Shown here in pieces: positions 9,981 to 17,842 of a DNA stretch of 64,000 nt. The DNA is taken from contig NZ_AZAY01000025.1 of the NCBI RefSeq assembly GCF_001021165.1, positions 1 to 64,000 of the forward strand, read 5' to 3'. A program made the translations under genes and the position numbers. The DNA comes from Marinitoga sp. 1197 (lineage in GTDB: Bacteria; Thermotogota; Thermotogae; Petrotogales; Petrotogaceae). The notes below the pieces were generated by a model that saw nothing but the letters and a program-made list of their open reading frames with translations, had not been told where the DNA came from and searched no databases. How positions within the stretch are numbered: the stretch's first letter is position 1; every line of letters starts with the position of its first letter.

Positions 9981-10064
9981 GGAATTATATAATAAAATTT
10001 TATCGAAGTTATAAATATAAAATTTGCAAGTATTGATCTCGTTCAGACGATCATTTACTTATCT

Positions 10065-10078
10065 GATAAAATTATAAT
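10065..10078 (+). repeat. direct repeat GATAAAATTATAAT, left copy
   Basis: The 14-bp sequence GATAAAATTATAAT occurs here and again at 10608-10621, bracketing both structured elements. It may be a target duplication, but its AT richness makes chance plausible. Confidence 0.3.
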
Positions 10079-10106
10079 AAAAAACTTTGGAGTCAATTAT
10101 TAGGTA

Positions 10107-10306
10107 CAAAATATTTCTCAAAATAATATATCGTTCAAGCGGTGAAATTTCTAATCTTCAAAATTTTTCATTCTCGCCGGTCGCTCAGACTCGCATCCAT
10201 GCTCGGCTTTGCTCAAAATCACATCCATGTGATTTTGACCGGCAACATTCAAAATTTTTTCAGGAAATTTCAAGCTTTCTCTCATATTATTTTTTGAAAT
10301 ATTTTG
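10107..10306 (-). repeat. structured fold-back element, copy A (minus orientation)
   Basis: A 200-bp element whose ends (10107-10129 and 10284-10306) are inverted repeats of 23 bp with 2 mismatches. Pairing continues inward with gaps to a GCCGGTC / GACCGGC helix. Inside are a near-perfect hairpin CAAAATCACAT GG ATGTGATTTTG and a second core GCATGGATGC, joined by GAGC segments. Read on the minus strand it has the same order of motifs as copy B. It could be a MITE-like sequence or a structured RNA; no transposase is nearby. Confidence 0.75.
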
Positions 10307-10388
10307 TTATTAGTTCTAAAAAAATATGATAGTCATAAAAATTATTTATAATTGTTTGTAAATTTTATGTATTATAAATTATATATGA

Positions 10389-10595
10389 TTAATAATAATA
10401 ACGAATTATAATCTGAGAAAAGGCTTGAAAATTCCCGAGTTAAATATTTGCGTGAGCTGTCAAAAAAACAGGACGTTTTTTTGAGCGAAACCATTGCATG
10501 GATGCAATGTTTGAGCGACAGCGGTAAGCAAATATTTAATGAGGATTAAGAATTTTCACCGCCTGGCCGAAGATTGTGATTCGTTATTATTATTT
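10389..10595 (+). repeat. structured fold-back element, copy B (plus orientation)
   Basis: A 207-bp element ending in 24-bp inverted repeats with 2 mismatches (10389-10412 and 10572-10595). Inner paired segments are GAAAATTC / GAATTTTC, TTAAATATTTGC / GCAAATATTTAA and GCTGTC / GACAGC. The centre has two hairpins: CAAAAAAAC / GTTTTTTTG with loop AGGAC, and CATTGCAT / ATGCAATG with loop GG. It shares GCATGGATGC, TGAGCGAC and TTTTCACCGC with copy A, but its terminal arms are different. Confidence 0.75.
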
Positions 10596-10607
10596 CCTAT
10601 TTATTCC

Positions 10608-10621
10608 GATAAAATTATAAT
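10608..10621 (+). repeat. direct repeat GATAAAATTATAAT, right copy
   Basis: Second copy of the 14-bp sequence found at 10065-10078. Confidence 0.3.
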
Positions 10622-10671
10622 TACTTGAAAAAACATTTGAATTTGAAATTGTTTATTCTGTAATATACCTC

Positions 10672-10680
10672 TGATATAAT
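10672..10680 (+). promoter_or_regulatory. extended -10 promoter of rsmB
   Basis: TGATATAAT lies 19 nt before the rsmB ATG and ahead of the Shine-Dalgarno AGAGGTGAT. No good -35 box is visible, which is common for extended -10 promoters. Confidence 0.55.
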
Positions 10681-10699
10681 AACAAAAAGAGGTGATTTT

Positions 10700-16607: not shown

Positions 16608-16637
16608 TAAAAATAGCCCTGAGGGCTATTTTTTTTC
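16608..16637. terminator. bidirectional terminator between tsaB and csrA
   Basis: A stem of AAATAGCCC / GGGCTATTT flanked by A and T runs. The plus strand has eight T after it, and the minus strand has an A/T run. The csrA stop TAG is inside the stem. Confidence 0.85.
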
Positions 16638-16859
16638 AAATAATTTCTTTACCTGGGAAATATCTTTAACCTTTGTAGCTGAAATATTTTCTTCTATAAT
16701 ACTTTTGTATACTTCTTCCCTATATATTTTGAAATCTTTTGGACCTTCAAATCCCAATTTTATAACCGATCCTTCGATGGATAAAACCTTTAACTTTAAA
16801 ATTTTATCTTCTATCATTATAGTAATACCTTCATTATTTTTTCTTGATAAGACTAACAT
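16626..16859 (-). CDS. csrA: carbon storage regulator CsrA
   Basis: Homodimeric RNA-binding regulator that blocks translation by binding GGA-loop hairpins, and in flagellated Gram-positive-type systems it represses flagellin. The 77 residues begin MLVLSRKNNEGITIMI and continue through LKVLSIEGSVIKLGFEGPKDFKIYREEVY, with a C-terminal helix extension (ISQVKKLFEKK) of the kind found in FliW-regulated CsrA proteins. The ATG at 16859 is chosen because MLVLSRK is the universal start and AAAGGGG lies 9 nt ahead; an ATG 6 nt upstream is too close. It follows fliW directly. Confidence 0.95.
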   Translation of the reverse strand: MLVLSRKNNEGITIMIEDKILKLKVLSIEGSVIKLGFEGPKDFKIYREEVYKSIIEENISATKVKDISQVKKLFEKK

Positions 16860-16861
16860 AA

Positions 16862-17842
16862 TCATGCACCCCTTTCATTATCAGGTGCTTGTTTTTTGAT
16901 AATTTCATTGCTTCTTTCTATTTCTTCTTTTACATTATGTTTTAGATGATATAGTTCGTTATCCAAAATAATTTGAATACCTTTGTTGTTTACTTTAGAT
17001 ATTACTATAGGTGCTTTTAGATTTACGGTAATATTATCAGGGTCTCCATGAGGAATTGTCATTATTGAAAAGATTTTAACATCTTCTGGATTATTTATAT
17101 TTAAATATTCGACTAAGTCTTTTGATAATTCAAATGAATAATCCGCTCTAACCAATATTGGATCTATTATAGGGAAGGTTATATCAGGATTTTCCAATGA
17201 AATTAACCATTGTATAGGAAATGTATCCTTTGAAAAATAAACATAGAACGCCTTTAAATTTTCAAACCCTGGAATTCCATTTTCAAAGGTGATTATTTCG
17301 TCATCAGAAATTTCCAATTCACCAAATTTGGTATTGAATTTTTTTGTTTTTTTAGAAATTTTAGAAACTTCTTTTATCTGCCTTTCAAGAATTTGCTGAC
17401 TTATTATAATTTCATCTCGTATAATATGTTTCAAAGATAATTCCTCATTGTCTAAAATATATTGTATCCCTTTATTTGTTTTTTTAGAAATAATTAAAGG
17501 TGCTTTTAGATTTACAGTAGCGTTTTCCGGATTTTCATGAGGTATTGTCATTATTGCAAAAACTGCGGCATCATTTATATTTTCTATATCTAATTTTTTA
17601 GCTATTTCAATAGGAAGTTGAACCTGATAGTCTATTTTTATTAATTTAGGTTCAATAATAGGAAAAGATACAAGTTCATCTTCTAAAGATAATAACCACA
17701 TTATAGGATATGTTTCTGGAAAGGTAAATATAACAAATTTTCTCAAATTTTCAAATCCGGGAATACCATCTTCAAAATAAATAATTTCATTATCTTCTAC
17801 CTCGATTTCACCAATTCGAGTATTATATGTTTTTAATGCCAC
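16862..17842 (-). CDS. fliW: tandem-domain flagellar assembly factor FliW
   Basis: FliW binds flagellin and CsrA and so links flagellin export to flagellin translation. Family members have about 150 residues; this protein has 326 and is two complete FliW domains in a row (about 4-160 and 168-325). Both halves keep FE(D/N)GIPGFENL, PI(M/Q)WL(L/I)SLE, FPII(E/D)P, FAIMTIPH / FSIMTIPH and TVNLKAP. The start is GTG at 17842 with GGGAGGAG upstream. It lies between flgL (14 nt) and csrA. A fused dimer facing the CsrA dimer is an attractive inference. Confidence 0.93.
   Translation of the reverse strand: MALKTYNTRIGEIEVEDNEIIYFEDGIPGFENLRKFVIFTFPETYPIMWLLSLEDELVSFPIIEPKLIKIDYQVQLPIEIAKKLDIENINDAAVFAIMTIPHENPENATVNLKAPLIISKKTNKGIQYILDNEELSLKHIIRDEIIISQQILERQIKEVSKISKKTKKFNTKFGELEISDDEIITFENGIPGFENLKAFYVYFSKDTFPIQWLISLENPDITFPIIDPILVRADYSFELSKDLVEYLNINNPEDVKIFSIMTIPHGDPDNITVNLKAPIVISKVNNKGIQIILDNELYHLKHNVKEEIERSNEIIKKQAPDNERGA

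Follow-up and report, generated by a model that had tools for sequence, protein, structure and literature searches.

The gene-free stretch between lysA and rsmB in Marinitoga sp. 1197 contains two long fold-back elements in opposite orientations, and the question is whether such a pair is a structured RNA, a mobile palindrome, or both. We analyzed it within a 64,000-nucleotide stretch of the genome (the window). Element A lies at 10107–10306 on the minus strand and element B at 10389–10595 on the plus strand; the stretch 9981–10699 holds a single chance ORF of 80 codons. The coordinates, strands, helices and hairpins given in the original prediction, which was made from the letters alone, were all confirmed, and the structured RNA family that it proposed and left unnamed proved to be Rfam RF01731 (TwoAYGGAY). 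The cores of A (10130–10286) and B (10413–10572) scored 52.2 and 50.6 bits in cmscan against a gathering score of 43 bits, and both alignments spanned model positions 1–168. A THF riboswitch match to B was rejected (21.5 bits vs. a cut-off of 36).

Both elements contain two adjacent AYGGAY-loop hairpins on a long outer stem, and the TGAGCGA segments and both GGA-loop hairpins were confirmed in each. In A (all features on the minus strand), the outer arms at 10284–10307 (5′ side of the RNA) and 10106–10129 (3′ side) pair at 22/24 positions. The closing helix GCCGGTC/GACCGGC joins 10176–10182 to 10237–10243 and is helix 1 of our core alignment, with two-sided changes in 6/7 pairs. Hairpin 1 (10213–10238) has the CsrA-type GGA loop CACAUGGAUGUG, marked by invariant CA-GGA-G columns and covarying pairs, and hairpin 2 (10188–10207; GCAUGGAUGC) carries tandem G·A pairs in its stem. 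In B (plus strand), the arms at 10391–10414 (5′) and 10571–10594 (3′) also pair at 22/24 positions, the closing helix GCTGTC/GACAGC joins 10456–10461 to 10517–10522, hairpin 1 (10460–10484) has a shorter loop, ACAGGACGU, and hairpin 2 (10489–10512) is again of the GCAUGGAUGC type. The hairpins and closing helices were placed from the sequence and the core alignment, and the arms from the sequence and pairing energies. The arms of A and B differ in sequence and, as predicted, each pairs with its own partner: the energy was −16.0 for A vs. −5.6 for the 5′ arm of A with the 3′ arm of B, and −21.9 for B vs. −4.4 for the 5′ arm of B with the 3′ arm of A. The elements folded far more stably than shuffled sequences, with energies of −63.4 kcal/mol (A, z −8.0) and −83.0 kcal/mol (B, z −12.2).

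Copies, transposon ends and paired layout

A blast search with A as query found about 30 places in the window's genome. One of them, on a second contig (C2:50304–50497), is a full-length copy of A, 93% identical over positions 10–205 of 211; it ends at the arms, and its flanks are unlike those of A. The composite unit comprising the left flank, A, the spacer of the divergent pair A(−)/B(+) (10308–10388, unstranded) and B (9989–10599 as a whole, unstranded) also recurs, as a deletion derivative at G000:C14:42452–42814 (L075), which blastn aligned in two pieces (95% and 99%). The deletion fuses the first hairpins of A and B, with its junction inside the stem common to both; the hairpins might have recombined, or a polymerase might have switched from one to the other. 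At 10020–10080 on the minus strand, a sequence (CGTCTGAACGAGATC) resembles the 3′ part of TwoAYGGAY elements and is possibly a decayed third copy, within which the A–B unit is nested.

Two further subfamilies have the ends TGTCCAATTAGT/TGTCYAAAAAGT. The terminal pattern TGTCYAAAAAGT occurred at 88 sites in the window's genome vs. 7 for the reversed control, and that genome holds at least 41 related, distinct terminal-repeat copies, which were extracted. Of these, 33/41 had flanking direct repeats of ≥8 bp vs. 9.6% for swapped flanks (mean longest repeat, 9.5 vs. 5.8). The repeats began 3–5 nt outside TGTC in nearly all such copies; they are target-site duplications of about 9–14 bp. An IS4-like DDE transposase (PF01609) bears TGTCYAAAAAGT at its own end in the window's genome and in four genomes of the same genus (5/7 searched). 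Because this end is common to the resident transposase and the terminal-repeat copies, the latter can be classed as MITEs; their MITE-like behavior is well supported, and their mobility is shown. The transposase copies in the window's and same-genus genomes mostly had stop codons or lay at contig ends, and an active source may have been lost or left unassembled.

For A and B themselves, mobility is suggested by the duplicated copies and by absence in relatives: no element was found in the orthologous lysA–rsmB spacer of three sister species (G002, G005 and G006). Neither element has TGTC ends or a clear target duplication, the best candidate beside A being the 7-bp CTAATAA. A 14-bp direct repeat (10065–10078/10608–10621) flanks the pair, yet the homology of the deletion derivative extends past the left repeat. 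The flanking direct repeats looked for as the mark of a mobile element were clear in the terminal-repeat subfamilies, with only candidates at A and B. The mobile reading itself held up, on the dispersed copies, the target duplications in those subfamilies, the shared transposase end and the empty spacer in the three sister species. In another species, G004, the same spacer (L092) contains a different palindrome-like insertion, TTTCGC...GCGAAA, and therefore the site may collect repeats.

All 41 copies in the window's genome were intergenic, and a same-strand gene lay upstream in only 10/37 cases, so that simple carriage in 3′ UTRs is unlikely. In the other 27/37, the upstream neighbor was on the opposite strand, with divergent promoter regions outnumbering convergent ones (11 vs. 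3). This is an orientation bias against sense read-through among the 41 copies. No promoter-like excess was seen. The plasmid and phage collections searched contained no similar DNA.

Lack of further copies had been named as grounds against the original prediction; many further copies exist, in the same genome and in other bacteria, so these grounds fall away. Within a neighbor sample of 61 genomes, RF01731 was confined to the window's genus, with a copy number from 0 to >40. Scanning the species genome collection with a pattern gave at least 120 stretches, mostly from Lachnospiraceae and Gammaproteobacteria among the matches listed. Whole-genome counts with the Rfam model reached 78 in Lachnospira sp. 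RGIG8763, 67 in Pantoea coffeiphila, 54 in Solimonas aquatica, 38 in a Eubacterium bin, 37 in Psychromonas arctica and 32 in Roseburia hominis. The model found zero copies in 5/20 genomes probed via pattern hits, which were probably chance pattern matches. Listed neighbors within 700 bp of each other were divergent in 31/31 cases, the layout of A and B (Lachnospira, 23/23; Eubacterium bin, 6/6; window's genome, 2/2). Among the Lachnospira pairs that we read, most combine unlike arm types, and the two units have complementary inner flanks, which suggests a composite unit. No autonomous element with Roseburia-type ends (GTGTCAAAAGGT) was found: these ends occurred at nine sites, eight of them at already known copies. 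The ninth, in Roseburia hominis (L332, near 1381–1510), is an arms-only relic with palindromic ends and without the two-hairpin core.

Selection on RNA or on DNA

The core alignment comprised 21 distinct cores, all from the window's genus. Standard pairs filled 96.5% of the alignment cells, and two-sided changes occurred in 16/22 pairs. The covariation score was 0.637 vs. 0.202 for shuffled alignments and no more than 0.176 when structures were slid, in agreement with the claim that pairing is kept while sequence is not. As had been expected of a structured family, the bases of the closing helix vary between copies (GCCGG/CCGGC, GCAGG/CCTGC, GCCTG/CAGGC and ATTAG/CTAAT, among others). The CA-GGA-G of hairpin 1 was invariant in 21/21 cores, and the GGA of hairpin 2 was kept in 19/21. 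In 40 Lachnospira copies, arms paired with their own partners at −55.3 kcal/mol vs. −28.1 kcal/mol when swapped, and 98.5% of swaps were worse. In the control, own and swapped pairing were equal for Lachnospira flanks farther out, and the own-arm advantage was absent from flanks 70–110 nt outside the Roseburia matches.

Within the outer helix, the cleanest one, G·U pairs outnumbered A·C mismatches (31 vs. 12, p 0.005), a pattern expected under selection on the sense-strand RNA. When stems were counted in full, conserved internal loops confounded the comparison, and G·U was not favored over A·C (165 vs. 226). The core covariation and the wobble test both speak for selection at the RNA level, with a signal that is not uniform across stems. 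Stem changes among the 21 cores were almost all two-sided (115 cells changed on both sides, few on one). This excess goes beyond what ordinary compensatory evolution would lead one to expect, and module exchange or hairpin-templated repair could be its cause.

Such repair is the basis of the strongest alternative, a purely DNA-level selfish palindrome whose single-stranded or cruciform fold serves transposition and in which hairpin-templated repair preserves the identity of the paired arms. DNA mobility is evident from the target duplications and transposase ends, and the nearly always two-sided stem changes, the whole-stem G·U count and the lack of any preference of upstream genes for sense transcription of the elements all fit this explanation. 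The G·U excess in the cleanest helix and the csrA association described below count against it. So does the invariance of the CA-GGA-G loops and flanking linker positions: since these stay fixed while the stems change freely, templated repair alone is insufficient. On balance, we regard an exclusively DNA-level element as unlikely.

The possible CsrA link and the proposed mechanism

CsrA binding of TwoAYGGAY has been proposed from motif matches (Gardner and Eldai 2014, PMC4333381). In the window, a csrA gene encoding a 79-aa protein (PF02599), the presumed partner, lies at 16626–16865 on the minus strand, 6 kb from the elements. It is overlapped by an adjoining gene at 16862–17842 (minus strand) whose 326-aa product combines two FliW domains in a single chain; FliW, an antagonist of CsrA, normally has just one such domain. 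As expected of a CsrA-binding RNA, GGA is located in hairpin loops within ACANGGANGU-type sequence, and the loops CACAUGGAUGUG, ACAGGAUGU and similar ones fit the known CsrA recognition sequence. Among 298 Lachnospiraceae genomes, screened with first-look filters that may overlook weak copies, RF01731 was found in 46 and csrA in 148. The csrA gene was present in 43/46 RF01731 carriers vs. 105/252 non-carriers (Fisher p 8e-12, with kinship not corrected for). The three csrA-lacking carriers were searched for fliW as a test for assembly gaps; because fliW was missing there as well, they stand as exceptions. One of them, G377, has at least nine RF01731 copies. All three csrA-bearing hosts that were checked had fliW. 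Taken from loop sequence and gene co-occurrence, binding of CsrA by TwoAYGGAY RNA is a plausible prediction.

As a whole, we give a probability of roughly 60% to the reading that A and B are a mobile, transposase-dependent palindromic repeat whose transcript folds into the RF01731 RNA and binds CsrA. In recent TwoAYGGAY copies, core and arms travel together. The IS4-like transposase would move copies in trans, and a sense-strand transcript would form a long rod capped by a three-way junction with the two GGA-loop hairpins, where one CsrA dimer could bind both loops. The retained benefit might be the shielding or regulation of the element's own RNA, or a local or global modulation of CsrA. As with REP doublets (REPINs), the two members of a divergent pair probably spread or function together. 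A broader proposal, which we hold only tentatively, is that TwoAYGGAY is an RNA domain common to transposable elements of several phyla that captured the global host regulator CsrA; the arms would have been swapped between transposase systems and the two CsrA loops kept as CsrA binding would control element RNA or movement.

The elements might instead be a family of CsrA-sequestering small RNAs analogous to CsrB/RsmZ, amplified by transposition and now domesticated for host regulation. Each element has two CsrA-type loops of the kind for which binding was proposed (PMC4333381), most carriers have csrA, with fliW in the three csrA-bearing hosts checked, and the Rfam scan reported no CsrB-type RNA in the window. 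The parasite-like copy number, from 0 to >40 within one genus, and the absence from the site in G002, G005 and G006 make this explanation improbable. Known CsrA-sequestering RNAs, moreover, usually have many GGA sites and occupy a single conserved locus or a few. The Rfam type label ‘Cis-reg’ and the intergenic position of 41/41 copies might point to a 5′ leader acting in cis or to a transcription terminator, a reading that is largely refuted and hardly credible: copies are dispersed in both orientations, with neighbor genes that vary from copy to copy, no terminator-like site was found in the window stretch, and the motif was scored as not cis-regulatory by Weinberg 2010 (PMC2864571).

If CsrA binding of this mobile repeat is confirmed, the result would be a transposable element linked to a global RNA-binding regulator, and the CsrA-binding RNAs of Lachnospiraceae and Thermotogota might come from it. 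TwoAYGGAY, an orphan RNA family since 2010, is now testable as a mobile repeat with up to 78 copies per genome, and Rfam motif families can arise by repeat amplification, not by cis-regulation alone.

Relation to known systems

The RNA family itself is already known; TwoAYGGAY has been listed for the human gut, Gammaproteobacteria and Clostridiales (Weinberg 2010, PMC2864571). The literature that we searched contained no account of it as a mobile or high-copy repeat, in divergent pairs, or tied to csrA by co-occurrence; within that literature, both the portrayal of TwoAYGGAY as a mobile, paired element of high copy number and its co-occurrence with csrA are new. A and B resemble RF01731 in exceeding its gathering cut-off over the full model and in having the outer stem and two AYGGAY hairpins. 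They differ in occurring in a Thermotogota-like genus, in their longer linker (TGAGCRAA, TGAGCGAC), tandem G·A pairs and longer arms, and in having sister copies with clear transposon ends.

With CsrB/CsrC and RsmX/Y/Z, the elements share GGA-loop hairpins that match the CsrA recognition sequence, but they have only two sites each, dozens of dispersed mobile copies and no shared Rfam match. They resemble REPINs and BIMEs (REP doublets, PMC3116915) in that palindromic units form inverted pairs as the repeated unit, as in the 31/31 divergent pairs here; TwoAYGGAY units, however, are 5–10 times longer, and the enzyme with matching ends identified here is an IS4-like DDE transposase rather than a RAYT tyrosine transposase. 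MITEs such as the Correia element of Neisseria (PMC10969869) are similar in length (about 190 bp), terminal inverted repeats, target duplications, dependence on a transposase in trans, intergenic placement and a foldback transcript. Unlike MITEs, TwoAYGGAY copies contain a conserved RNA domain that is multi-branched and has two loops of a protein-binding type, and this domain is found in several phyla between unrelated arms.
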